Origin: a virus
Strand: one strand, 5' to 3'
DNA length: 64,000 bases
IMG/VR virus record: IMGVR_UViG_3300049491_000829
Span: 1-64,000 of that record
How positions within the stretch are numbered: position 1 is the first letter of the stretch; every line of letters starts with the position of its first letter. Of this stretch, positions 5,734 through 59,297 are shown piece after piece. Position numbers and translations under genes: made by a program. The notes beneath the pieces were generated by a model. The model did no database searches. It saw only the letters and a program-made list of their open reading frames with translations, and had not been told where the DNA came from.

Positions 5734-6531
5734 ATGGATGCTGTTTTTTTGTTAGCGCAAAAGCATTGGCGAATACTTTCAGTTTTAATCCTTTGGTTAA
5801 ACCTTGCATTTTTTCTACATTTAATTGGTAAACGTCTGGAAAAAATCAACAGCGACAAGTTAATTCTATCTTGGTTGTCTGAGATTGGATCGGACATCAG
5901 GCTATACGGAATTGTCACGTCGTTAAGTTTGACTATCGCTTATGCTTCAAGCGTATACAGTAATTATCTTGCTTGGCTGTCCAGACTAAGTTCAGTGCTA
6001 GCAAAAGTCAGCGCATTATTTTGGCTCGTACTCGTCGCGATCGCATTCACTGAAACTGCTGCGCCGCATTTTTCAAGAATTATTACTCGCAGTCAGATGA
6101 ATCAAATTGACAAACGGAACGCACTAACTCTCATTCCTTTATCTGCAAGTAGCGCAAAAGTAATAATTTATATTCTTGCTTTTATATTTGGATTGGGAGC
6201 ATTCGGGGTTGATATATCCCCATTGCTGAATATGAGTACGGTCGCGATCGCAATATTTGGCTTTGCAGGTGCAGAAACTTTTAAAGATATATTAGCCTCG
6301 TTAAAAATTTTTATTGACAGACTTTACTACGTCGGTTCAATTGTAGAAGTTAGTACAGATGGACTATGCAAATACGAGGGACAGTTAAAAGGCACAATTA
6401 CTAAAATTACACTGTTTAATACAACTATTCAATTAGAAAAGTCAGCAACTTTTAGTAAGTCGCTGACAGTAGCAAACGGTGCAATCCGAAGTATTATTGT
6501 ATATCAAGAAAATATCAAGTCACGTGAATAG
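5734..6531 (+). CDS. MscS-type mechanosensitive ion channel
   Basis: 265 residues with hydrophobic segments near 13-32, 58-75, 88-106, 137-157 and 163-185. The last one (VDISPLLNMSTVAIAIFGFAG) followed by ETFKDILASLKIFIDRLYYVGSIVEV and GTITKITLFNTTI is the typical pore helix TM3 and start of the beta domain of the MscS family (compare GxxG pore packing, then GDxVE and TTxR). The family forms tension-gated channels in the inner membrane. The C-terminal alpha/beta domain is short, so this is a small member. It is on the plus strand inside a minus-strand block, with a 12-base tail-to-tail overlap with the methyltransferase, and is probably accessory cargo. Confidence 0.75.
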   Translation: MDAVFLLAQKHWRILSVLILWLNLAFFLHLIGKRLEKINSDKLILSWLSEIGSDIRLYGIVTSLSLTIAYASSVYSNYLAWLSRLSSVLAKVSALFWLVLVAIAFTETAAPHFSRIITRSQMNQIDKRNALTLIPLSASSAKVIIYILAFIFGLGAFGVDISPLLNMSTVAIAIFGFAGAETFKDILASLKIFIDRLYYVGSIVEVSTDGLCKYEGQLKGTITKITLFNTTIQLEKSATFSKSLTVANGAIRSIIVYQENIKSRE

Positions 6532-7509
6532 CATGATGTGTTGCAAGACTGCGCGATACAAATTAACTGGTACTGCATTACCTAGCGCTGCACCATCTAC
6601 TAAGTTTATTCCTGAGAATTGATACCAATTAGGCAAAGTTTGCAACCCTGCAACATCCTGAATCGACAGCGATCGCGTTATGCCATTTACCCAAATATCT
6701 AAGAAATTTTGACGACTAGCACCTTTACCATCACTAAACATAGATTTGGTAATTGTAAAACACGGCTCAAATTGATGCCGAATTTTTATTGTGTCGTTAC
6801 GCTTACCAATTCGTTGAATCAAAAACGCTTGAGTTGTCGGATACATTTGCAATTCAACGTCAATATCTTTTTGCTGAGTCGCAGTCAGCTTAGATAGTTT
6901 CATTTGCGCTATGCGATCGCCTAATACGCTCCACCAGCCCAAACGAGGACGACGCGCAGGCAATCCCAACACTCGTCCCTCTCTGTCCGCAATTACGATC
7001 ATTCTCTCTCTGTCCTGCGGTACATCATAATCATGGGCGTTTGCGATGCCAAATGTCACCCCATAGCCCAGTTCAATCAAGGCAGTTTTAATCATTTCCC
7101 AAGACTGCGATCGCGCATAGCCTGGGACTTGCTCTAGCGTGAAAAACCTTGGACGCTTTAATTGCAAAAATCTGATTGTTGAATACGCCATTGCAAAGTC
7201 CCGTTCTAACTCCATCGCATCAGTTTTTGCAGCAGAATAATTTTGACAAGGCAGCGAGATATGCCCAATCATTGGCTCATTTTCAATAAATCTAAAATCC
7301 AATCTCGCCGCATCTTGAATACTGCCTCGAAATAAATTGCAGCCGTATTGCTTAAAGTTTTTATCGTGCAAGTCCGCGATCGCGCTACTCAACGCTGGAT
7401 TTTCTGGATCGAACTCCACTGCATTTGTATAGTGCAATCCTTCTTCAATAAAGGCTGCACCAATTCCACCACCACCACTGCAAAAATCTATAACACTACT
7501 ATTTTGCAT
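6520..7509 (-). CDS. DNA (cytosine-5) methyltransferase
   Basis: 329 residues. Motif I is DFCSGGGGIG (about 8-17), the catalytic Cys88 lies in LPCQNYS (canonical PPCQ, first Pro replaced by Leu), motif VI is TLEQVPG with Glu126, motif VIII is QDRER (165-169), and motif X is LGNAVPVNL with the usual Asn311. It should transfer a methyl group from SAM to cytosine C5 in DNA; the target is not readable from sequence. It is a single gene with its own promoter of the shared TATGTC-N6-GACATA type just upstream (7533-7561), so it is probably an early or lysogenic gene rather than part of the virion block. Contrast with the second enzyme at 24382, which lacks the motif X Asn. Confidence 0.88.
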   Translation of the reverse strand: MQNSSVIDFCSGGGGIGAAFIEEGLHYTNAVEFDPENPALSSAIADLHDKNFKQYGCNLFRGSIQDAARLDFRFIENEPMIGHISLPCQNYSAAKTDAMELERDFAMAYSTIRFLQLKRPRFFTLEQVPGYARSQSWEMIKTALIELGYGVTFGIANAHDYDVPQDRERMIVIADREGRVLGLPARRPRLGWWSVLGDRIAQMKLSKLTATQQKDIDVELQMYPTTQAFLIQRIGKRNDTIKIRHQFEPCFTITKSMFSDGKGASRQNFLDIWVNGITRSLSIQDVAGLQTLPNWYQFSGINLVDGAALGNAVPVNLYRAVLQHIMLFT

Positions 7510-12202: not shown

Positions 12203-13333
12203 TTAGTAGTTGTAAGTTATTTGTCCAATACTGCGATCGCTGAATGTCAAAGTAATCGTAAGCGTGTCAAGTTTGCCAACTGTCCAAAGATTGGGCATAG
12301 TCGCAGGCATAGCAAACTGATTCAACTCAATATTGATAATTCCTGGAAGGACACCAGGGATTGACTGTATTCTTGCTTCAATTGCTTTGTTGTATATTGA
12401 ATCCCCAGGCGGTAAATTACCAGGCTTTAAGTAATTTCTGATGTTCTCTGCGATCGCGCTTGCAATTGATTCAGGGAGTACAGATGTATTAACTCCGACA
12501 ACGACATTGACGTTGACAACAAAATTCTGAATTGACCAGACGTTGATTGTTGCCATTGCAGAAACAGAATTAAGCTCGTTTGTCAGCGCAGATATTTGAG
12601 CATTGCTAAGTGTTGAGCCATCTGCGTTAAGTCCGAATACGCCTACGTAGCCATTTGCAAATGTTGCTTGATCAGCCTTCATTCGTCCAAGCGCGATCGC
12701 TGTCGATCCAATTCCTAAAAAGTTTATTGTTGCTCGGACAAAATCATCTTCACTAATTAGAGTATCTCGACTTCGCAACAATCCGTAAACTCTCTGTTGG
12801 AAATCTGCGTCTGATTCTTCGTTTCGTCCTCCTGTTACTGCATCAGTCAAAGTTATTGTTCCTAGCTTTCGCAAACTGGGGAATGACACTGCTGTTGCAG
12901 ACGAGGCATTCCCGCGATCGCCTTCTACTGTGCAAATGATGTTGACTTCTGCATAGTCCGTATAAGATGAGATCGCAAGGGGTTCAACAGTTTCATAAAT
13001 CAATCCGTTGATTGAAATATTGAATCCCTCTGGCAATACGAAGGATTCTCCATATAATCCATCCAGCCTTACTCCTATTCTGCCTATTGCTTTTGCACCT
13101 GTTTGCTTTTCCAATCCAAATAAAGCAATTCTGTTTTTTTCCAGAGTCGTAGCTAATCCGTTGACTGCGGACAAAACAGTCTCGCCTTGTTTTGCTGTTG
13201 CTTCCAAAATTGCAACAACTGGAGATGCAGGAGAAAAATCATTTAATCTACCTGCGCTAACTGCGATCGCTCTTTCTTTGCCAATGTTTAATAAATCCTG
13301 AACTGTCTTTTTATCAATAGCTGGTGTGTCCAT
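12203..13333 (-). CDS. Baseplate assembly protein J-like
   Basis: 376 residues. The hallmark GGRNEESDADFQQRV (about 166-180) and the LRSRDTLISEDDFVRAT stretch after it identify the baseplate_J family (P2 gpJ, T4 gp6-like), which builds the baseplate wedge of contractile tails. The N-terminus (DLLNIGKERAI) and the C-terminal beta region also fit. Length is near that of typical J proteins. Lies between the hub gene and the fibre genes. Confidence 0.9.
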   Translation of the reverse strand: MDTPAIDKKTVQDLLNIGKERAIAVSAGRLNDFSPASPVVAILEATAKQGETVLSAVNGLATTLEKNRIALFGLEKQTGAKAIGRIGVRLDGLYGESFVLPEGFNISINGLIYETVEPLAISSYTDYAEVNIICTVEGDRGNASSATAVSFPSLRKLGTITLTDAVTGGRNEESDADFQQRVYGLLRSRDTLISEDDFVRATINFLGIGSTAIALGRMKADQATFANGYVGVFGLNADGSTLSNAQISALTNELNSVSAMATINVWSIQNFVVNVNVVVGVNTSVLPESIASAIAENIRNYLKPGNLPPGDSIYNKAIEARIQSIPGVLPGIINIELNQFAMPATMPNLWTVGKLDTLTITLTFSDRSIGQITYNY

Positions 13334-13347
13334 TTCCTCTCACTTTG

Positions 13348-13376: not shown

Positions 13377-15665
13377 TTAAGTTGGTTGTTTACCTGCGAT
13401 CGCCCAATACACAAACCCTGCTTGGGGTGGAATCGCTGTCCTGTCGAGCTTTCGTTGAGCAAAATGTAAATGCGGTCCCGTTGACGCTCCTGTATTCCCA
13501 GAGCGAGCAATAACATCTCCTGCTTTTGCTTTCCCTGAGAATCCAGAGGATAAATGCATATATTGCCAAATAAAACCCCCGTAGGTAAATTCTACTATGT
13601 TCCCGCCTGCCCCGGAGTTTGGGACGTATTTTACATCGACTGTTTCGCCTGGTTTGACGATTGGATAAAGTGGAGTACCGACAGGCATTGGTACATCTGT
13701 ACCTTGGTGATTTGTTGAACCAATGCCACCGGGAGAGGCGCGGGGTCCAAAAGGAGAGGAAACTGTATAGCCTGCTATTTTGTCGCCCCGTTTAGGTGAC
13801 GCTTGGAGGTTCGCGGGTACAAATAAAGTAGAACCAACGGAGGGAGCGCTACCAGTTGCGGCAGGTGTTGCTACTTGTTTTGCTTTGATTTTGACTGGTA
13901 AATAAAGATTGATGCTTGTCGCGATCGCATTGTCGTTATAGCTGTGGGAGACTTCGCTGATTCTGTAAGCTTGCGCGATCGCGTTTCCTAGATTTACGTC
14001 ATCATCTAGTTTCAGTATTTGTCCGGGTTGTGCGAGTAATATCTCAGGCATCATCATAGTGTTGATGCTGATTGAGGATTCAAATCCTTTTCCGATTTCA
14101 TCGCCTGGTTTTAACTTTAAATCTAAAATACCAGATGGATTAGTCGGAGTTGGAACAACAAAAGGAGGCTTAATTGAGTCTGGAGATTTACTTGCAAGCA
14201 CTCGATCGGAAGAAGCGCGATCGCCCCATGTTGCGCCGGGTCTTAGTGCGATCGCTTTTACAATAATTGTTTTGTCATCGGGTTTTAGCTCTTTGATATT
14301 GAGCTTGGTTGCTTCTCCACGAATAAATAATCCCTGGGATTTTGCAACTTTGAGCAAATACTCATAATCTGATTCAGATTGCAAACTACTTGCAATAATA
14401 TTATTTGCTGCGGGTCCGAATTCTCCCAAGTCGCCACCTGTTTTTTTGACAAACTCTTGCGCGATTTGACGCACAGTTGTATTTTGACGGATTTTGTAAA
14501 TTTTTGAGTTAGCTGATAATTTTGCACTTTTCGCAATCGCGTAAGTAATTTGCTTTCCCATTATCCGCGTAGTGTTTGGGTAATCGTTACTGCCTCTGAC
14601 ATCAGTAAGCAAAAATTGGTAAGTCCCACTTTCGGAAGCTTTGTCATAGAATCCAAGTTCAATATTAATTATTATCCCCTCCTTCACATCAACAGTAGGC
14701 GCGATCGCTGTGGGAGTAGTAGCAGGGGCAATTGTTGGAGTAGTGGTTGGAGTAGCAGTTGTGGGAGTAGCAGGACTTGTCGCAGAAGTTGCTGCTGGGG
14801 TTTTTGATGCGCTTTGAATAAACTTTTGAATGTTTGCAAGAAAAGTAGTACGTTTGCCCCCTGGTGTTCCTTGTCCGTATGGATTGCCTTGAATTGATGC
14901 CCATTCGTATCTAGCGCCTAGTCCTTTGCCTTTACCGTCGATTGCAGCTTCAAAGCGTCCGGCAATTACATCATCAAGTATTTGTCGATAAATCATTCGT
15001 CCGACTGCAAGTATCTCTTGTGAAACTGGCTTAAAGTCAACTAGTCCTAATTTCCGATATCCATAAGCATCATCTTCCCAGACAAAATCCATCGTTTGGT
15101 AACGTCCAGTTGCACTGCTTGTAAATCTTCCTGATGAGATTCTGCGCTTGGGATGGGAGCTTAACGAGCAAGGGCTAAACGTTTCTTTGCCTCCTGTATC
15201 ACCAAATAAATATCCGTATCCTCCTTTTGCTTCTGCGTCTTCGCCTAGTTCCGCGATCGCAATTGCTTTTAAAAAAGCTTGGACGTTTACACTTTTTAAA
15301 GCTTCCAAGCATCTTTTACCAGTAGAAGTTAGCTTTGATAAATCGGAACCGCAGCCAAAGCGTTTTTCAATATTTTTTAAATAGTCAACGCCTAGCAATG
15401 TTGCACCTGATGCTGTGCTGGATGTTGCTTCAGACTGGGGATTTTCCAGTAAATTTGCAGGTATCATAATACCTCCTTTTGATTGGAATTCTGTAAGCAA
15501 TAAATTCAATACTTTTAATCCAGGGTCATAAAACGAGAAAGAGCAACTAGACGATCGCTCTTGTTCTGCAATGCTTACATTGCATTGCTGCAAATAACCA
15601 TCACCTGTTTCGTAGAAAAATTTATCAGCTATTTGAATTTTGCAAAAAGGCGATCGCAGAAACAT
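13377..15665 (-). CDS. Tail hub protein with GH104-like murein glycosidase and M23 endopeptidase domains
   Basis: 762 residues. Residues 1-75 look like the N-terminus of gpD/gp27-type hub proteins (FCKIQIADKFF, SCSFSFYDPG). An inserted domain at about 127-285 resembles the lambda R endolysin (GH104): IAIAELGED with candidate catalytic Glu139, then SSATGRYQTMDFVW, DFKPVSQE and WASIQGNPYGQ. A Pro/Thr linker (about 289-323) follows, then the hub resumes (TYAIAKSAKL, QNTTVRQIAQEFVKKTGG). The C-terminal 140 residues are an M23 metallopeptidase: His653 and Asp657 in NHQGTD, His704, and His732/His734 in GPHLHF. It should sit at the tail tip and open the peptidoglycan by cutting both glycan and peptide. 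The insertion of a glycosidase within the hub N-terminal region is unusual. Confidence 0.85.
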   Translation of the reverse strand: MFLRSPFCKIQIADKFFYETGDGYLQQCNVSIAEQERSSSCSFSFYDPGLKVLNLLLTEFQSKGGIMIPANLLENPQSEATSSTASGATLLGVDYLKNIEKRFGCGSDLSKLTSTGKRCLEALKSVNVQAFLKAIAIAELGEDAEAKGGYGYLFGDTGGKETFSPCSLSSHPKRRISSGRFTSSATGRYQTMDFVWEDDAYGYRKLGLVDFKPVSQEILAVGRMIYRQILDDVIAGRFEAAIDGKGKGLGARYEWASIQGNPYGQGTPGGKRTTFLANIQKFIQSASKTPAATSATSPATPTTATPTTTPTIAPATTPTAIAPTVDVKEGIIINIELGFYDKASESGTYQFLLTDVRGSNDYPNTTRIMGKQITYAIAKSAKLSANSKIYKIRQNTTVRQIAQEFVKKTGGDLGEFGPAANNIIASSLQSESDYEYLLKVAKSQGLFIRGEATKLNIKELKPDDKTIIVKAIALRPGATWGDRASSDRVLASKSPDSIKPPFVVPTPTNPSGILDLKLKPGDEIGKGFESSISINTMMMPEILLAQPGQILKLDDDVNLGNAIAQAYRISEVSHSYNDNAIATSINLYLPVKIKAKQVATPAATGSAPSVGSTLFVPANLQASPKRGDKIAGYTVSSPFGPRASPGGIGSTNHQGTDVPMPVGTPLYPIVKPGETVDVKYVPNSGAGGNIVEFTYGGFIWQYMHLSSGFSGKAKAGDVIARSGNTGASTGPHLHFAQRKLDRTAIPPQAGFVYWAIAGKQPT

Positions 15666-15724: not shown

Positions 15725-16588
15725 ATGGGCACAATTAGAGCAGCAAAAACAACATTAATCAAAGCAAAAAATGTTGCTGGCGATTTATTGGAAAAATCAC
15801 AATTACTAACAGTCAAAGAAGGACAAGTTTTAGCTGTTCAAAAAGTCACGGACGACAAAAATCAACATGCAAAAATAATGTTAGCTTCCCCCGCGATCGC
15901 AGATGACGGAACTAGTAGTTTACAAGAAGTCTACGGATACGAACCACATTGGATTATTCCTCCTGAGATGATGCCCAGAGAAATAAAGCTAGCTGCAAAA
16001 TATCGCAGTCAATTAGACAACTTCACAGGCGATCATGGAACCCCGTATAGACAATGTGCTTTGACTTCAAGAGCGATCGCACTAGACTGGGCGTTAAAAC
16101 GATTTGGACAAGAAGGTCTAGATGCTCGTGCAGCAAAAGAAGGATTCAGAGAAGGCGAAGGCTGGTACGGCAGAGTTCTCAAAGAATACGGCGACACGAC
16201 AATACACGAATTTCATACAAAAGCATTTAAAGAATTTGCTGTAGAATCTTACTTCACAATGACAGCTTCATTATCAGACTTGATTGAAGCGCTTGAATGT
16301 CAAATGTGTGTCCCTATCTCAGTTAGCTACAAATCAAGCGGTCACGTCATTTGTGTAGTTGGCTACAATCCAGAACAAAAGTTTTTCTGGATTCACGATC
16401 CTTATGGATGTCGAGCAGGCAGCGCTGACTACTATTCAGTCAGAGGAGGTAACGCAGGTGCATTTGATAAATACTCGTTGGACGTAATGCGCGACATCTG
16501 GGGCGATCGCGGCAACAAAGATTCGGGCTGGGCGCATTTTATCACTTCAGTTGCGAATCAACCAACAGGAGTAAAATCGGGAATGTAA
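15725..16588 (+). CDS. Papain-like (C39-type) cysteine peptidase, lysin candidate
   Basis: 287 residues. After an N-terminal beta-rich part (about 10-60) that could be an SH3-like binding domain, the papain-fold triad is readable: Gln110-Cys111 in YRQCALTS, His207 in SGHVICVVGY, and Asp225 in WIHDPYG. The family cleaves peptide bonds; in phages such proteins act as endolysins or tail-associated peptidases. It is alone on the plus strand between the hub and portal genes, with an AAGGT ribosome site upstream. Endolysin is favoured from position; a head maturation or protease role cannot be excluded. Confidence 0.6.
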   Translation: MGTIRAAKTTLIKAKNVAGDLLEKSQLLTVKEGQVLAVQKVTDDKNQHAKIMLASPAIADDGTSSLQEVYGYEPHWIIPPEMMPREIKLAAKYRSQLDNFTGDHGTPYRQCALTSRAIALDWALKRFGQEGLDARAAKEGFREGEGWYGRVLKEYGDTTIHEFHTKAFKEFAVESYFTMTASLSDLIEALECQMCVPISVSYKSSGHVICVVGYNPEQKFFWIHDPYGCRAGSADYYSVRGGNAGAFDKYSLDVMRDIWGDRGNKDSGWAHFITSVANQPTGVKSGM

Positions 16589-23907: not shown

Positions 23908-24382
23908 GATTTAAAATTAGCTTTGGCTTAGGAACAATTGTTAGATAGCGATCGCTGATTACAGCAGTGACAGTTTGCTTTGATTTGAGCTTTGCACGAA
24001 AATAACCTTTGATAAATAAAGCAAAAGGCTTAACATTCTTTGTTTGCGAAACAATCTTTATAGTGACTTGGTTTCGCAACTTACTTTTAGCAACAAGTTC
24101 GCCAGCTATTAAAAATGTATTTACTTTAATACTAGGATGCGGACTGTCTGCGTCTGCAATAGTCCTGCAAACAAACAATGTTAGCTCTCCTGTCTGTGGA
24201 TTTGTACGAGGATAGACTGTAAGTCTTAGTAGTTTTGTACTATCTACTTTTAAAAAGGCGCGTTTTGCAGATTGAACGAAAATAATAGGGATTGAATAAG
24301 TGTCAGTTATAGCAGCGTACCCAGTTTCAAAAGGAATAATGTTAGCAAGGATAACGCCTACAGCTTGAGAGTAAAATTCCAT
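23885..24382 (-). CDS. Hypothetical protein between methyltransferase and CmoA-like gene
   Basis: 165 residues, no known family. Predicted beta-rich: LLRLTVYPRTNPQTGELTLF, KVNTFLIAGELVAKS, VTIKIVSQ and KQTVTAVISDRYLTI. The start codon shares a base with the methyltransferase stop (TAATG) and its end overlaps the CmoA-like gene by 23 bases, so all three are made from one message. The conserved position suggests a functional partner of the modification system (for example an adaptor or nucleic-acid-binding subunit), but this is a guess. Confidence 0.65.
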   Translation of the reverse strand: MEFYSQAVGVILANIIPFETGYAAITDTYSIPIIFVQSAKRAFLKVDSTKLLRLTVYPRTNPQTGELTLFVCRTIADADSPHPSIKVNTFLIAGELVAKSKLRNQVTIKIVSQTKNVKPFALFIKGYFRAKLKSKQTVTAVISDRYLTIVPKPKLILNHAKREST

Positions 24383-25383
24383 TAGTTAGTTTGTTGTAAC
24401 AGTCTTTTACACAAGCTACCAGCGATCGCGGACATTGCCAACGGTGGGACAGCGCGTCCTAGACGTTCCCAATTCTCTGCATCTGTTCCACCTAGATAAA
24501 AATCGTCAGGGAAGGAACATATTTTTTTGAGTTCGGGAATTGTGAACTGCCTTGTTTCTCCTGTATCTGATTTAATCCAACCACCACCAGAAAAATATGC
24601 GGATTCAAAGCGACCGTAATCATGTGCCATTATTGTAGGAGAAGGGCGATCGCTCGATTTATAATTAAATGCAGAACCACTGTGTTTTACGTAGCGGATA
24701 TGAGGTAATACGTCTTTCACGCTGTAAGTATAAGGAAGAGGACGCGGGAAAACAGGCTGTATCTTCAAATCCTTGCGGATACCCATGAAGAAAACACGAT
24801 CGCGCATCTGCGGTACTCTCAAATACTGACAATCAATCTTGCTACAAATAACACTGTATCCACAATCTTTCAAAGCTTGGACAATCTCAACAAAATAGCC
24901 TTTTGCTTTCCCTTTTACTAGACCTGCAACATTTTCAGCAATGAACCCCTTTGGCTGTAACTCTTTGAGTATTCGCGAGTATTCAAAAAATAAATCATCT
25001 GACTTTTGAGATTTTTTGCCTGAGTAATGTCTTTTTTTGCCCCAACCTTTATCACCTGAACCTGCGCTAGAGAAACTAGTACAAGGTGGAGAGCCATCTA
25101 AAATATCGATTTTGCCCACTGCTGCAACAATATCTTTTGCTGCAATATCTCGCACATCTCGCGTATCTAGTTTTGTTGTTGAATGATTTGCTTGGTAACA
25201 TGCGATCGCTTCTTCAACAAATTCAGCAGCATACACAACTTCACATCCAGCCAATTTGTAACCCAAACTGCTACCACCGCAGCCTGAGAACAAAGAAGCT
25301 ACTTTAATCCCATTTTTAGGAATTAATGCAATTTCCGCCATGCTTGGCATATAGTAATCAGGTTTATCTTTTTTATAGTTCAT
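24382..25383 (-). CDS. C5-cytosine DNA methyltransferase with Asn-to-Arg change in motif X (possible carboxymethyltransferase)
   Basis: 333 residues with a complete catalytic set: motif I SLFSGCGGSSLG (30-41), catalytic Cys101 in GSPPCTSF, motif VI AENVAG (149-154), QMRDR (192-196), a target-recognition region, then RPSPTIMAH and a CSFPDDF segment. Motif X reads WERLGRAVPPLAM: Arg310 replaces the near-universal Asn of the GN(S/A)V motif, which touches the methionine part of SAM (Asn304 in M.HhaI). In engineered M.MpeI, Lys or Arg at the corresponding Asn allows use of carboxy-SAM, as I recall. A CmoA-like gene lies two genes downstream in the same operon. The likely product is 5-carboxymethylcytosine or, conservatively, 5-methylcytosine. 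Confidence 0.88.
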   Translation of the reverse strand: MNYKKDKPDYYMPSMAEIALIPKNGIKVASLFSGCGGSSLGYKLAGCEVVYAAEFVEEAIACYQANHSTTKLDTRDVRDIAAKDIVAAVGKIDILDGSPPCTSFSSAGSGDKGWGKKRHYSGKKSQKSDDLFFEYSRILKELQPKGFIAENVAGLVKGKAKGYFVEIVQALKDCGYSVICSKIDCQYLRVPQMRDRVFFMGIRKDLKIQPVFPRPLPYTYSVKDVLPHIRYVKHSGSAFNYKSSDRPSPTIMAHDYGRFESAYFSGGGWIKSDTGETRQFTIPELKKICSFPDDFYLGGTDAENWERLGRAVPPLAMSAIAGSLCKRLLQQTN

Positions 25384-27012: not shown

Positions 27013-29502
27013 TTAAACAAGGGCGATCGCTTGTTCTTTAGCTAGTGCTAATGTATCAATTCCTTCTTTAATAATTTCATTATCGATTGTGATTCTAAAT
27101 TTGCCTCCTTTAATCTTAGTAAGTATAATTTCTTTCTTTCTAAAGATTGACACTGCACCTGATTTAGTTGGTAGCCATTCGATTTCTTCTTCCTCTTCCT
27201 GTTCCTCTATTCCATCAATCGCCCAAACGGCTAAACGACAATCCCCATATTCATCAAATTTCTCGTAAAAATTGCGCCAGTTGTTGCCAATGTACAGCAA
27301 CACTACGTCAAAGTTTGGATTGTCAAGATTATCATTGTTTTTCTTAAGCTCTTCGCGATATTTACGATGCTCAGGAGGACAGGAAAACGCGACACGTCCT
27401 GTCATGTCGCACGTTATTTCAAACAAACGTTTTGCGATCGCGCCTGAGCCTTTGTTTGACTTTAATCCTTGTTTTGCAAGGACTACACCCTCTTTGATGT
27501 TATTTTTACCAACTTGCTCTTCAATCTTTTTGAGCCAAGCTTCCGGGTCCGAGTAAGGAATATTAGCAAAAAATGTGATAGGACGATTGTCATCTGGGAT
27601 TTGCCAGTCTTGGGTTAAACCATTTAATTCTTCAGTTAATCCTGTGAAATGATGCTTTGCAGCTATGCGTTTACCAGGGTCAGCACAAGGATCAATGTCA
27701 ATCTCTCCTAATACTTCGGCAATTGTTTCAACTAACCAATCAGGGGTGTACCATTGATCCGACATCAACGGTATATGCTTTTCTATATCTAGTCTTTGCT
27801 GTTCCGGATAAATAAGCGATCGCCCGGTTTGAATAGTCTCCGCGAGTGCGACTGTTTTGCCATCAACAGGCTGACTAAGTTGTTGAGTTTGTTGCTGAGT
27901 AGCTTGTTGTTGGGGAATACTTGCAGCTTTCCCAATTGCGCCTTGTTTAGATGGCGTACTTTGTTTCTCAGAAAATAATTTGCTTAATGCTTTTTCTACG
28001 CTTGTAGCTTCACCACGTAGAATCAAATCTGCAACTTGCATTGCAACTTTAGCGCCGTAGTTTGGATTTTGGTAAACTTCTTCGCGCAACTTGCGAACTG
28101 TCGCGACCATTTTGTCATTTTTATTAAATAGTTCGCGCAATTTAATCCGATTAGCGTCAGGAAGTGTGTCAATCCAATCAAGCAGCTTGCTAGCTTCATA
28201 AGCTGTTTTCCCAGAGAGTCCGGAACCGCGTGCGGCTTCATCCCACGCTTTGCCAGATTGGGACGCATCTTTTTTTGACACTCTTGCTTGACGATCGCGA
28301 GCTAAAGTCGCGCAATATTGCTTACGCGCAGCAATTTCCCGGATTTTCATCTCTTGATTGCGATCGCGTGTCTTGTCATTTGTATCAAGCAGCGCTTCCA
28401 CTACTTCCGCTATCGAACCAAACGGACGAACTTCAACAGGTATTGTAGAAATATTTTCAATTACAGCAGCTTGAGTACGTCTGTTCCCTGCAACTACTTC
28501 TAAATCGTAAACATTCTCATCATTTTTGACTAAGCCAACAAGAACTCGTTGCAGAATAACACCCCCGTTATTTTGAAGACTTTCTTGAATATTTGTAATA
28601 TCCTCGCCATCTCGACCAGGGTGGTAAACTTCTCTATTAACATCCAGAAATGGCAACAAATGCGGCGGATAATCCCCAATAAATCCTGACTCTAGCTCTT
28701 TTGTGCGTGCATGATACTCGCGACACACAGCGCTACGCACCGAATGAAAATATTGTCCGCGTTCTGTTGCGTACAGAATTTCAGTACCACCATCTTTCAT
28801 TGTCGCTTCTTGTCCAGCTATTAACAAAGCTGGTATTTCTTGCTCCAAAAAACCAACAAAGCCGCCTTGATAGAACTGATCGACGCGAACAATATAGCCT
28901 TTACGTGAATAACTAAAAATTGTCCGAAATTCTTCATCCTCGTCGCTTGCCTTCCATAAAGCTTCTCCTAACTCTGTTTTATCTTCTTCAATACTTTCTG
29001 CAACTTTTGCAGATTCACTACTTGTATCAACAATCTCAGACATTTCATCATCCTTAATAACTTGAAATTCTTCTATAACTGACTCTAAACCATTTTCAAT
29101 AATTGCAATTTTCCCAGGGAAAATCAGTCTTTCAACCGTAAAAATCCCTTTTTCTGTCTGGACGCGATCGCCCAATTCAACATTTAGTATGTTCAGTTTA
29201 TCATCATATTGTAAATCCAACAGCTTAACAGCCTGCTCGTTGCCACTCTGACTACGGACTATAACAGACCCGTCGTTGGATATATCGACAATTCGGACAA
29301 TTTCAGCATCGCCTTGTTTTGCTACGCAAGCGCCAAACAAATCAAAACCCGCATCTGTCAAACGGAAGAAGTTAGCAAGGTTAGATTCACGCTTTTCTAT
29401 GATTACCTGTTGTTTTGTGTGTACCTTTGAGCCTAGCTTCATATCCTTAAGTTTGTCGCGATCGCTCTCTAGTTCCCTTAACGCGCTTTTTAGTGTTTCC
29501 AT
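27013..29502 (-). CDS. ParB-like / N6-adenine DNA methyltransferase (Dam-type) fusion
   Basis: 829 residues. Residues about 50-150 and 195-260 are beta-rich, unknown. A ParB-like domain spans about 285-510, with the AGNRRTQAA motif (338-346) and a helix-turn-helix part around 425-445. After a Gln-rich linker (525-545) comes a phage Dam-like (pfam05869-type) methyltransferase: DQWYTPDW (582-589), IDIDPCADPG (601-610) and ANIPYSDP (646-653), the last being an NPPY motif with Pro to Ile. Predicted to methylate adenine N6 and bind DNA through ParB. It is driven by an operator-bearing promoter. The Ile change may lower or alter activity. Confidence 0.82.
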   Translation of the reverse strand: METLKSALRELESDRDKLKDMKLGSKVHTKQQVIIEKRESNLANFFRLTDAGFDLFGACVAKQGDAEIVRIVDISNDGSVIVRSQSGNEQAVKLLDLQYDDKLNILNVELGDRVQTEKGIFTVERLIFPGKIAIIENGLESVIEEFQVIKDDEMSEIVDTSSESAKVAESIEEDKTELGEALWKASDEDEEFRTIFSYSRKGYIVRVDQFYQGGFVGFLEQEIPALLIAGQEATMKDGGTEILYATERGQYFHSVRSAVCREYHARTKELESGFIGDYPPHLLPFLDVNREVYHPGRDGEDITNIQESLQNNGGVILQRVLVGLVKNDENVYDLEVVAGNRRTQAAVIENISTIPVEVRPFGSIAEVVEALLDTNDKTRDRNQEMKIREIAARKQYCATLARDRQARVSKKDASQSGKAWDEAARGSGLSGKTAYEASKLLDWIDTLPDANRIKLRELFNKNDKMVATVRKLREEVYQNPNYGAKVAMQVADLILRGEATSVEKALSKLFSEKQSTPSKQGAIGKAASIPQQQATQQQTQQLSQPVDGKTVALAETIQTGRSLIYPEQQRLDIEKHIPLMSDQWYTPDWLVETIAEVLGEIDIDPCADPGKRIAAKHHFTGLTEELNGLTQDWQIPDDNRPITFFANIPYSDPEAWLKKIEEQVGKNNIKEGVVLAKQGLKSNKGSGAIAKRLFEITCDMTGRVAFSCPPEHRKYREELKKNNDNLDNPNFDVVLLYIGNNWRNFYEKFDEYGDCRLAVWAIDGIEEQEEEEEIEWLPTKSGAVSIFRKKEIILTKIKGGKFRITIDNEIIKEGIDTLALAKEQAIALV

Positions 29503-53228: not shown

Positions 53229-53748
53229 ATTGGATTAGTTGATCGAGGGGTACTCTTAAAAGCGTAAAACTAATTAAACATCCTGCAAGACTGCCATCAG
53301 GATACCAGTCTTGCTCTGTTCTTTGAAAGCGAGTCATGACGCATGGAGAATGCGATCGCGCACCCCAGACAAAAGCGAGTACAGGCGGTGCTTTTCCTTT
53401 TTCCACAGGCTTAAGGAATGCTGCAAGCTCATCAATATACTTTTCAATAAGCCTTGCTTGTCGTCTAGCAGGCTCGTCATTTTTGTTTGCTGGACTAATT
53501 ATACTCCTTCCAGATATAGGTAAGTTGTTAATTGATAAAGTAAGATTCTCATTATTTCGCCATTGAACAAATTGCATTTCTGTAGCTGGAGAATTTGCAG
53601 TTGCATAGTTTGCAGCCGTTTCGTAGTTGATTTCAGTTGGCTGCAATAGAAACTTCCAGGAGCCTTTGCCATCTAAGCGCGAAATACCCGCGTAAGTTGC
53701 TTTGACTCGCTGAATAGTTGGCAATGTTTTAATGACTTCTGGATTCAT
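53227..53748 (-). CDS. Tail tube/spindle protein (CIS tube or LysM-linker type)
   Basis: 173 residues. FLLQPTEINYETAANYA, LTLSINNLPISG, and a C-terminal PPVLAFVWGARSHSPCV region followed by YPDGSLAGCLISF match the CIS_tube domain of contractile injection tails (Afp7, gp53-like), which links tube to hub. No LysM seen. Good position between tape measure and baseplate parts. Confidence 0.7.
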   Translation of the reverse strand: MNPEVIKTLPTIQRVKATYAGISRLDGKGSWKFLLQPTEINYETAANYATANSPATEMQFVQWRNNENLTLSINNLPISGRSIISPANKNDEPARRQARLIEKYIDELAAFLKPVEKGKAPPVLAFVWGARSHSPCVMTRFQRTEQDWYPDGSLAGCLISFTLLRVPLDQLIQ

Positions 53749-53755
53749 GTAAATC

Positions 53756-55657
53756 TCAAGCTAATCTAACGTCTAACTCATTGGTAAGAGCATTTTCTAT
53801 AATTGCGATCGCAGCCATTGCAATCTCCTGGGGCGTGCCAGATGGAAGATTCATTACAATCGATCCGGAATTAAAGTTTACAGTTGAGCCTGATGTTTTG
53901 CTTCCCCGAACTAAATTTGACATTTGTTGAGGATTTAAAATGAACTCGCTAGAATTCGCAATCACAGGTTTTGCACCTGCGGGGGCATTTCTCATCTCTT
54001 TGCTGATAGCTGGGAAATAGCCATCAGCAGCAGTAGGAATATTCCCTGCATATTTTGGCAGCAATCCAAGCAAGAATTTAGCCACTCCTAGATTACCGTT
54101 AATTGGAGCAAGAGGAGTAACGCCAGGCGCAGAGCCTAAACCGCGAGTTGTTGATTTTGCACTACCATCAACGCTTGAGTCGTCAATCAAACCAGTCGCA
54201 GATGCAATTGGTCTAAGTAAATTTTTGACTGCGTTGACTGCGCTACCGATTAAATTAAAAATGAATTTTGCACCGGATACAAGAGTGTTTAAAACGGGTG
54301 CAACAAATAAAGCATTGATTCCCTCAACAACCGCGATCGCTGGTGCTGCAAGTCTTCCAAGAACGGGTGCAATAAATAAATCGTAAACAAATTTAGGAAT
54401 ACTTGACACCAAATCAACAACTAAAAAAGCTGCATTTTTTAGAGATGAGATTAAAAAAGATAGCAAAAATTCGCCAGCGAACAAAATAAGCCCTGGTAAA
54501 TTCCCAATTATTCCTTTAGAAATTGAGCCAATAATCCCAAACAGGAAATCGCTAGCCCACATCCCTGCCTTTTGCCCTAATCCCTCAATATCTCCTGTAT
54601 TCAAGCCTTTTAGCGATTCTGCAACACCTTTTAGCCAATTATTAAAGGATTCAACGCGATCGCGAACTGGAATCATCACATCTCCAGTAATCCCCAGTAT
54701 TCGCGCAAGTTCCCAGAAAATACCGTCGTCCCCAATCACTAAATTAATTGTGTCATTAAGCGAAGTGAGTACGCTTTGATATCCCTCAACGTTAGGATTT
54801 AAATCGCGCTGAATGCTAAAAATTCCCACGTTTGGATCGAACAATCGATCTGTAAACGAAGATAACGTAGACTTACTTAGTTTTTGCAGCCTTGCTATAT
54901 CATCGTCAGAGATTGCGGATTCTAGGGATTTAATTAAAATATTGATGCGATCGCTCAACGATACATCAGCAAAGCTTTTTGCACTAGAATTAATCGCTTT
55001 AAGATTGTCAACAAGTGCAGATTTTAACAGCGTGTTATCAGCAAAGAATTTATACTGATTCAATCCACGGGGTCCGATAGAGCCTGCAACATAAGCTGCG
55101 AGTGCTGCCCGTGTGTCGCGAATTCTAGTGTTGCTCAATTCTCCAAGCAATGCAGCTTTAGTGCTTGCATTTAACAATGCATCGCCTATCTCGTTTGCTG
55201 TTTTGCCAACTGTTTTCAGTCCTAGCGCAAAGTCATCCTGAATTGTTCTACTGATAACAGAGATATTCTCTGCGCTTGTTGGCAAATCCCGACCAAGAAT
55301 ACTTACTTGTTCGTAAAAGTTCTTGACGTATTTTGCTGCATCGTTGTACCCCAGTCCTAGCGTTTTTGTAGCTGTTGTGATTGCGTTCAATTCCTCCGCT
55401 TGTCTATCCAGCCCCGCGCTTAAAGTGTCATTTAAAGCAGATATCCCTGCTCGCGCTGTATTGATTGCACCAGCGATCGCAGCAGTTTGTAAATTTGCAT
55501 ACCCCAGCGCGTTTGCAAGACTATTTCCTAGTCCTCCTATTCCTCCGTTTGCTCCTGCCGCTGCGGCTTGTAATCCGCGCAAATTCTCACCAACGCTCTT
55601 AAATGCAGCTTGGGTTAAATCCCTTGCGATTAATAAAATTTCTGCAACTTCTGACAT
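53756..55657 (-). CDS. Tail tape measure protein
   Basis: 633 residues. Ala/Gly-rich N-terminus with coiled-coil helices, several hydrophobic segments in the middle (LPGLILFAGEFLLSFLI, KFVYDLFIAPVL, and others at about 370-470) and a Ser/Gly-rich end. It fixes tail length and probably enters the membrane during DNA entry. Upstream gene overlap is absent. Typical tape-measure layout, short for the class. Confidence 0.8.
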   Translation of the reverse strand: MSEVAEILLIARDLTQAAFKSVGENLRGLQAAAAGANGGIGGLGNSLANALGYANLQTAAIAGAINTARAGISALNDTLSAGLDRQAEELNAITTATKTLGLGYNDAAKYVKNFYEQVSILGRDLPTSAENISVISRTIQDDFALGLKTVGKTANEIGDALLNASTKAALLGELSNTRIRDTRAALAAYVAGSIGPRGLNQYKFFADNTLLKSALVDNLKAINSSAKSFADVSLSDRINILIKSLESAISDDDIARLQKLSKSTLSSFTDRLFDPNVGIFSIQRDLNPNVEGYQSVLTSLNDTINLVIGDDGIFWELARILGITGDVMIPVRDRVESFNNWLKGVAESLKGLNTGDIEGLGQKAGMWASDFLFGIIGSISKGIIGNLPGLILFAGEFLLSFLISSLKNAAFLVVDLVSSIPKFVYDLFIAPVLGRLAAPAIAVVEGINALFVAPVLNTLVSGAKFIFNLIGSAVNAVKNLLRPIASATGLIDDSSVDGSAKSTTRGLGSAPGVTPLAPINGNLGVAKFLLGLLPKYAGNIPTAADGYFPAISKEMRNAPAGAKPVIANSSEFILNPQQMSNLVRGSKTSGSTVNFNSGSIVMNLPSGTPQEIAMAAIAIIENALTNELDVRLA

Positions 55658-55664
55658 AACTAAT

Positions 55665-57535: not shown

Positions 57536-58750
57536 TTAGACATTGCCTGTGGGGATTAAATCAACGTTGATAAGCTCGATTTCAATCATCTCTAAAGTTT
57601 CGACAAATCGACAATATGCAGATATCTTGATTCTGCGAAGATTCCTTGGTAAAGCTGTCGTCACAGGTGTCGTAGGCGTGGGATTCGTGGTTGCAGGAGG
57701 TGCAACCGGATCGACAGCAGGCGTAACAGGTACATCACGCTCGACAATTCGATAAGCATCCTGCGGCGTGGAACCTGATAAGCCACCATCTGCGTAAGCT
57801 TGTTCCAGCAAACTCGTAATTAATCGCAGAACTTCGCCTCTGGTATATCCCTGTGGGTCCGATGGCTCGAATAGCTGAGGAAGTAAAGCGATCGTCAACT
57901 GACGAGAGACAATACTCATGGCAACGCGAGTATTGATATTGCTAAATCTTGCTTCCTTTGCAAGCGTCCGCGCACCCCATAGACATTTCCCGTAAGTAGG
58001 AATATCTTGACAGCAATTAATACCTTTACCGCGTAACTCATCGTAATCAGCAGGAAGAACGATCGCGTAAGGTTCTGCTTTAGTCCCTTTAACTGGATAA
58101 CGCACACCAGCCGGAGGATTATAGGGATTATCTCTAAACCTTTGTAGAGCGATCGCAGTTGCAATGACGGAAAGAGGAACAGCTTTATCTTCCAAATCTG
58201 TCAACATTCCATAATACAAAGAAGAATGCCCCAAAGGTGAAGAGTATAATTGCGATTCTGTAACCGCTTTAGCAGGACTGTCAGTAGTTGTAGCTGTATT
58301 AAAAAAATGTAGCCATCCAAGTTTTACGCATAACGCTTCTGCTTCTGCGTATACAGTTGTTCTGTCGTTTTGAAGCGCAATTGCGCTAAATTCTGGAATA
58401 CAAACTAGATGCATTTCCAAATCGGATTTATTACCAATTTGTTTGAGCGCATAAACTAAATGTCCTTTGTCTCCAGCAATTGCGATCGCAGGGTCTTTCG
58501 CTGCAATAAAGGATAATCTAGCTGCTGGGTAATTACGGAAAACAGCCCGAATTGAAGCAATCAATAAGTCAGATGCCCCTGTGAACTTTAATGCAAAATC
58601 CGCACTGTCCGCGATCGCAACTAACTGATTTGCATTAGCTGCAAGCACTGGTACTGCAAAGCCAACGAGACAAATTCGATTGATAGAAGTTGCACTATTG
58701 CTAATACTTGGCTGGACTCTTTCAATTATTGATAAACCTTGAATTGCCAT
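57536..58750 (-). CDS. Tail sheath protein
   Basis: 404 residues. MAIQGLSIIERVQPSI, then SVIATAIALQRFRDNPYNPP (194-213), PADYDELRGKGINC, GKCLWGARTLAKEA and NTRVAMSIVSRQL are typical of contractile-tail sheath proteins. A Pro/Thr linker near 342-365 interrupts the C-terminal domain, somewhat unusual. Sheath contraction drives the tube into the cell. Confidence 0.85.
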   Translation of the reverse strand: MAIQGLSIIERVQPSISNSATSINRICLVGFAVPVLAANANQLVAIADSADFALKFTGASDLLIASIRAVFRNYPAARLSFIAAKDPAIAIAGDKGHLVYALKQIGNKSDLEMHLVCIPEFSAIALQNDRTTVYAEAEALCVKLGWLHFFNTATTTDSPAKAVTESQLYSSPLGHSSLYYGMLTDLEDKAVPLSVIATAIALQRFRDNPYNPPAGVRYPVKGTKAEPYAIVLPADYDELRGKGINCCQDIPTYGKCLWGARTLAKEARFSNINTRVAMSIVSRQLTIALLPQLFEPSDPQGYTRGEVLRLITSLLEQAYADGGLSGSTPQDAYRIVERDVPVTPAVDPVAPPATTNPTPTTPVTTALPRNLRRIKISAYCRFVETLEMIEIELINVDLIPTGNV

Positions 58751-58751
58751 A

Positions 58752-59297
58752 TTAAGGTACTTTTGTTACTAATAAAGCGTCTAACTCGCTTAACGTTGTA
58801 GACGTGAATATCTCTACACTGTCAACTTTGTCGTCTTCATCTCCTAACTCAATATCAACTCTTAATAATTTTGTTGACTGAAATCTTAGCTCGCATTCCC
58901 AAGTCCCATCATCGGGCTTCATCAAGTCGTAGCCATCGAACCAAAGCGATCGCCTTGAATCCGTTTTGTCAGCAAAAGGAATGAACCCAATTAAATAACC
59001 AAGGATTTGGTCAATTACCCAGTAAAGCGCGTCAATTTCTTCCCCTTCTGGAAATAAGTTTTGCACTGAGATTTTGACATAAGTTAAATAATTTACTTCT
59101 TGAATTCCATTTTGTTCGTCAGGTTGTTGTCCTTTGCATTGAGGTGTAACAACGCTGATGTAATAAGGCTGCGATCGCGCATTTCTTCTTGCTTCCTTTG
59201 GCAAAATATTGCTTTTTATTCCATAGGAGATAAGCGCATCGCTAACAGGTTTAATGCGCTCAAGAATGCTTGCATCTATCAGTCTCAGTTCTAGCAT
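58752..59297 (-). CDS. Tail completion/terminator protein (Gp37-like)
   Basis: 181 residues. MLELRLIDASILERIKPVSD, then NYLTYVKISVQNLFPEGEE and a WVIDQILGYLIGF helix match the Gp37 tail terminator family. Overlaps the next gene by one base. Sits at the tail end facing the head. Confidence 0.65.
   Translation of the reverse strand: MLELRLIDASILERIKPVSDALISYGIKSNILPKEARRNARSQPYYISVVTPQCKGQQPDEQNGIQEVNYLTYVKISVQNLFPEGEEIDALYWVIDQILGYLIGFIPFADKTDSRRSLWFDGYDLMKPDDGTWECELRFQSTKLLRVDIELGDEDDKVDSVEIFTSTTLSELDALLVTKVP

Follow-up and report, generated by a model that had tools for sequence, protein, structure and literature searches.

Within a 64,000-nucleotide stretch of viral DNA (hereafter the window; positions 1-64000 of the 64125-base viral contig IMGVR_UViG_3300049491_000829), an intact single reading frame with an ATG start (13377-15665, minus strand) encodes a protein of 762 aa that combines two different putative cell wall hydrolases. 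This raises the question of whether the protein is a structural part of the phage tail or a lysis enzyme, and whether both enzymes would contribute to its function. The reading that best accommodates the results below, with a probability of roughly 0.85, is that of a baseplate hub of a contractile-tailed phage, whose GH104 and M23 domains would open the peptidoglycan locally during entry.

Domain organization and the two predicted wall enzymes

From its N-terminus, the protein, encoded throughout on the minus strand, comprises a first set of hub strands (residues 1-78; 15432-15665) that align to the N-terminus of the hub of Anabaena phage A-1(L), an inserted GH104 domain recognized by phmmer, AlphaFold2 and VIA-align (residues 114-288; 14802-15326), a Thr/Pro/Ala-rich linker delimited by alignment with A-1(L)-type hubs (residues 289-324; 14694-14801), the main hub fold, identified by HMM and hhalign comparisons and a weak Phage_GPD match (residues 325-598; 13872-14693), and an M23 metallopeptidase (residues about 630-745; 13431-13778). 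A sequence-only reading of this DNA had proposed a hub with a GH104-like domain inside the hub fold and M23 at its end, an architecture that is borne out by sequence, structure prediction and hub homology; the motifs it listed were all located at the residues named, namely E139, SSATGRYQ (183), WASIQG (255), H653-Q-G-T-D657 and PHLHF (H732, H734). The insertion does interrupt the hub fold behind its initial strands, but slightly later than the proposed residues 75-100, with the strands ending near residue 78 and the lysozyme fold beginning near residue 114.

A phmmer search of the whole PDB matched lambda lysozyme (1AM7/3D3D) over residues 129-266 (E about 4e-7) and paired E139 (codon at 15249-15251, minus strand) with Glu19 of the lambda lysozyme chain. 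E139, GRYQ and WA were invariant among 31 aligned GH104 sequences, and alignment showed E139 to be kept in five A-1(L)-type hubs as well. When residues 112-292 were folded alone with AlphaFold2, a model with a mean pLDDT of 78.5 and a pTM of 0.80 was obtained, which was superimposed by VIA-align on 3D3D (Z 15.3, 144 residues, 2.4 Å), 8KEA (Z 15.1, 157 residues) and 1AM7 (Z 15.0), compared with Z values under 7 for other lysozyme-superfamily folds (GH19 chitinases and lytic transglycosylases). The sequence-only reading had depended on a lysozyme-like fold at residues 127-285, and, with Z values of about 15 for GH104 alone, a lambda lysozyme-like fold is predicted with confidence for residues 114-288. 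The full-length AlphaFold2 model had a mean pLDDT of 49.6 and was poor outside GH104, the best helices of GH104 itself reaching 80-95; its GH104 part matched 3D3D over residues 116-283 and 8KEA over residues 95-292 (VIA-align Z 13.7 in both cases). RNA polymerase rows in the structure comparison of the full-length model were disregarded, as they align to low-confidence residues 472-594.

The C-terminal enzyme was recognized by Pfam as Peptidase_M23 (PF01551) at residues 652-740 (E 3.4e-12; 46.8 bits versus a cut-off of 28.7), and the ShyA, LytM and lysostaphin chains match this part with E values from 2e-10 to 9e-8. The H(x)nD and HxH zinc motifs that form the signature of the M23 family (PMC9662197) are complete (H653-x3-D657 and H732-x-H734), with the third His, H704, located 28 residues ahead of HxH. 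M23 fragments were poorly placed in the joint alignment and were left out of the fold. Gp16 of PDB entry 9M7N is an M23-bearing chain, and the best plasmid matches were single-domain M23 or GH104 proteins only.

The functional contribution of the GH104 domain can be judged against A-1(L), whose tail was solved by cryo-EM (Yu et al. 2024) and whose hub consists of a barrel domain with three extra domains, i.e. lysozyme (56-265), endoglucanase (266-430) and peptidase (736-899) (PMC10966104). By Pfam, the A-1(L) 'endoglucanase' corresponds to a DPBB_1 lytic transglycosylase domain. Lysis of Anabaena cells was reported for two domains, endoglucanase and peptidase; the GH104-like domain was also cloned, but the main text of the study does not report lysis by this domain (PMC10966104). 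This lends some weight to an alternative in which the hub is structural and only M23 works, GH104 being folded but weakly active or merely a wall-binding relic. We regard this as unlikely: the domain retains E139, GRYQ and WA along with further columns that do not vary among free-standing lysozymes, and the 762-aa hub has no DPBB domain that could take over glycan cleavage, since Pfam did not find DPBB_1 in it, though it did so in the A-1(L) and N1 hubs. Under the preferred reading of a hub with two working enzymes, GH104 would be the only glycosidase of the 762-aa hub, with a predicted activity.

Hub identity and neighbouring genes

Chain A of 8KEA, the A-1(L) hub gp15, was the only PDB chain matching across both the hub and the GH104 parts. 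With M23 left out, phmmer aligned the protein to 8KEA (E 2.4e-6) in three collinear stretches, covering residues 6-284 to 4-248 (hub strands and lysozyme), 330-461 to 431-552 and 560-595 to 681-716, the second and third of which are each weak on their own. In hhalign comparisons, residues 3-265 matched the A-1(L) hub N-terminus (96%, E 1.5e-9), and a match was also obtained for the hub core at residues 325-598 (92%, E 6e-7). An HMM built from the hub cores of A-1(L), N1, an 892-residue A-1(L)-type hub on an IMG/VR contig (L009) and the Leptolyngbya phage Lbo402-yong5 scored 33.5 bits (E 3e-9) on the hub ORF, the best of 2000 shuffles reaching 6.2 bits; no second ORF of the window was present among the best matches of this search.

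The gene directly downstream of the hub gene (12203-13333, minus strand; 12206-13339 in the comparison with A-1(L)) encodes a J-like baseplate wedge homologous to A-1(L) gp31, as supported by PF04865 (E 6.5e-19), phrog_6 and a phmmer match to gp31, and the hub gene heads a set of wedge and fibre genes. Homologues of the A-1(L) sheath (57539-58765), tape measure (53759-55663) and tube initiator (53230-53760) were identified elsewhere in the window, and among the matches listed from a single-sequence search of the window there was no homologue of the A-1(L) plug or spike. Taken together, the hub-core matches, each of them remote, and the homologues of A-1(L) tail genes in the window mean that the hub assignment can be considered safe.

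The possibility that the 762-aa protein is instead an endolysin for lysis from within draws on its best PHROG match, phrog_90 'endolysin', and on the common occurrence of GH104 and M23 in endolysins. It is nevertheless very improbable: the sequence flanking the enzymes is hub core homologous to A-1(L) gp15, the gene adjoins that of the baseplate wedge, and phrog_90 also matches the N-terminal part of the A-1(L) hub. Furthermore, a divergent gene next to the hub gene (15725-16588, plus strand) encodes a C39-like peptidase assigned to PHROG 'endolysin', and with this separate endolysin-like gene next door the hub need not serve lysis from within. Assignment to some other tail-tip or fibre component, as might be argued from a Phage_GPD (PF05954) match that alone is below the gathering cut-off (14.7 versus 30.1 bits) and from an identity with the A-1(L) hub of about 25% overall, is equally hard to reconcile with a top Foldseek match of the model to the 8KEA_A hub (E 1.7e-4), the presence of the Mu gp44 hub in the same list (probability 0.87, though E 1.2) and a core HMM score far above shuffles.

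Relationship to A-1(L)-type hubs and other enzyme pairings

The sequence-only reading had considered two wall hydrolases on one hub chain to be rare. This view does not hold, as a hub of this layout, with one additional domain, has already been solved and assayed in A-1(L) (PDB 8KEA; PMC10966104) and has relatives in other cyanophages; the 762-aa hub with its two wall enzymes is a distant relative of the solved A-1(L) hub and not a new kind. By tblastn, A-1(L)-type hubs were also found in A1, YongM, YongM2, Elbi, N1 and Dfl-JY23. A lysozyme-plus-RlpA gene had been noted in 2016 in A-1 and N-1, together with a similar gene in a prophage-like element of Nostoc PCC 7524 (PMC4916379).

In both the 762-aa hub and the A-1(L) type, the hub fold is split at the same point by a GH104-like insert, and M23 is C-terminal. 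In A-1(L)-type hubs, however, GH104 is followed by an RlpA-like DPBB domain, whereas the 762-aa hub has its Thr/Pro/Ala linker at this position. Because it lacks the DPBB domain, the 762-aa hub is not of the exact A-1(L) type and belongs with a broader set of split cyanophage hubs that bear wall-cutting domains. A second difference concerns the first M23 zinc-ligand His, which is H653 in the 762-aa hub and Gln or Lys in all five aligned A-1(L)-type hubs, in a region of low-identity alignment; the M23 Asp, the third His and HxH are retained in these five. The A-1(L) hub design is hereby extended to a distant phage, and, to judge from the 762-aa hub, such hubs can probably do without the RlpA domain and may have a canonical M23 zinc site. 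As a simpler two-enzyme version, it may be useful for asking which cut the crossing of the cyanobacterial wall needs.

Hub C-termini with Gln or Lys at this position are encoded at L004:3001-5700, L005:3501-6194, L006:3501-6200, L003:5616-8315 and L008:3501-6203, and the A-1(L) peptidase is reported to be active (PMC10966104) despite the Gln/Lys at its first zinc-ligand position. The A1 record KU234533 splits the hub (L002:12978-15676) into two genes, 'peptidase' and 'lysozyme'; the A-1(L) record OR360731 holds one 899-residue hub, and its frame differs from that of KU234533 in the hub gene.

Searches of IMG/VR with the single protein or a mixed alignment revealed no close hub relatives, and an alignment of the A-1(L) family matched two contigs. 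A set of diverse GH104 domains proved too heterogeneous, once aligned, to serve as a query. Bacterial genomes yielded no match to the hub alignment; a terminase search of these genomes returned only distant relatives with non-cyanobacterial hosts, and no hub homologue could be recognised in the DNA examined from any of these relatives. At the DNA level, no phage record matched the window.

Just ahead of the insertion, residues 64-69 form a GGI-x-(I/L)P hinge, of which G64, G65, I66 and P69 are identical in all six hubs compared. The tail protein of Lbo402-yong5 (709 aa), which matches the A-1(L) family by hhalign at 98.8%, likewise has a hub fold, a glycosidase-like insert at the corresponding position, preceded by the similar hinge GGIVGLP, and a C-terminal M23. 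Its insert gives weak matches to GH19, SLT and phage-lysozyme2 models, as opposed to GH104 in the 762-aa hub. With about even odds, the hubs of freshwater cyanobacterial myophages may share one conserved, hinge-marked slot that holds varied glycan-cleaving cassettes (GH104, GH104 plus DPBB, or GH19/SLT-like), always with a terminal M23. If so, hubs with two wall enzymes would be the rule for these hosts and not an exception among Gram-negative phages. The hinge motif together with the slot also provides a testable signature for finding such hubs.

Related arrangements occur in other structural settings. In Bacillus phage phi29, gp13 is likewise a single virion protein with lysozyme-like and M23 domains (PMC9863714, PMC9662197), but it is the tail knob protein of a podovirus and not a hub, and has an H(x)7D motif. 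In T4, a wall-cutting lysozyme is likewise placed at the central tail tip formed by gp27/gp5 (PMC9863714), but as a single enzyme on the spike gp5 and without M23. On cyanophage-like contigs, proteins of about 630 residues (L013:3753-5636 and L015:3693-5594) carry hydrophobic N-terminal helices followed by a lysozyme-like domain and M23, and a similar protein with M23 is encoded at L011:3657-5600; those of L013 and L015 represent a second, apparently unrelated way to pair a lysozyme-like domain with M23.

Proposed role in entry and the probable cyanobacterial host

By analogy with A-1(L), for which this has been shown, three copies of the hub most likely assemble into a ring above the spike that closes off the tail tube. 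Each copy would carry a GH104 domain for the glycan strands, tethered by the Thr/Pro linker, and a C-terminal zinc-dependent M23 domain for the peptide cross-links. Sheath contraction would drive the spike through the outer membrane and place the hub in the periplasm; there, GH104 and M23 would make a local hole in the peptidoglycan through which the tube could reach the inner membrane. In this scheme, activity, trimeric state and timing are modelled on A-1(L) and T4, and the host is a deduction from the data below.

A single catalytic domain is typical of the wall enzymes of Gram-negative phages, whereas the enzymes of Gram-positive phages frequently have two, probably owing to the thicker peptidoglycan (PMC9863714). 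Two enzymes on cyanophage hubs would fit this generalization, because the cyanobacterial wall is thick by Gram-negative standards. The link to thick cyanobacterial peptidoglycan raised by the sequence-only reading is thus a plausible explanation, at the level of a correlation.

The HIP1 palindrome GCGATCGC was found in 180 evenly spread copies in window positions 1-64000 (2.8 per kb), 147 of them inside listed ORFs, whereas base composition predicts 0.4 copies in total and a third-order Markov model about 6. Its density is about 0.5-0.8 per kb in A-1(L)-type phages, and no copy was present in the stretch of Lbo402-yong5 examined. The HIP1 density and the hub relationship together make a cyanobacterial host, as implied by the sequence-only reading, very likely. 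The abundance of HIP1 may stem from adaptation to such a host or from methylation in it. Two C5-cytosine-type DNA methyltransferases (6520-7509 and 24382-25383) and a fusion of ParB-N with a Dam methyltransferase (27013-29502) are encoded in the window, all on the minus strand, and a link between these genes and HIP1 methylation is possible.
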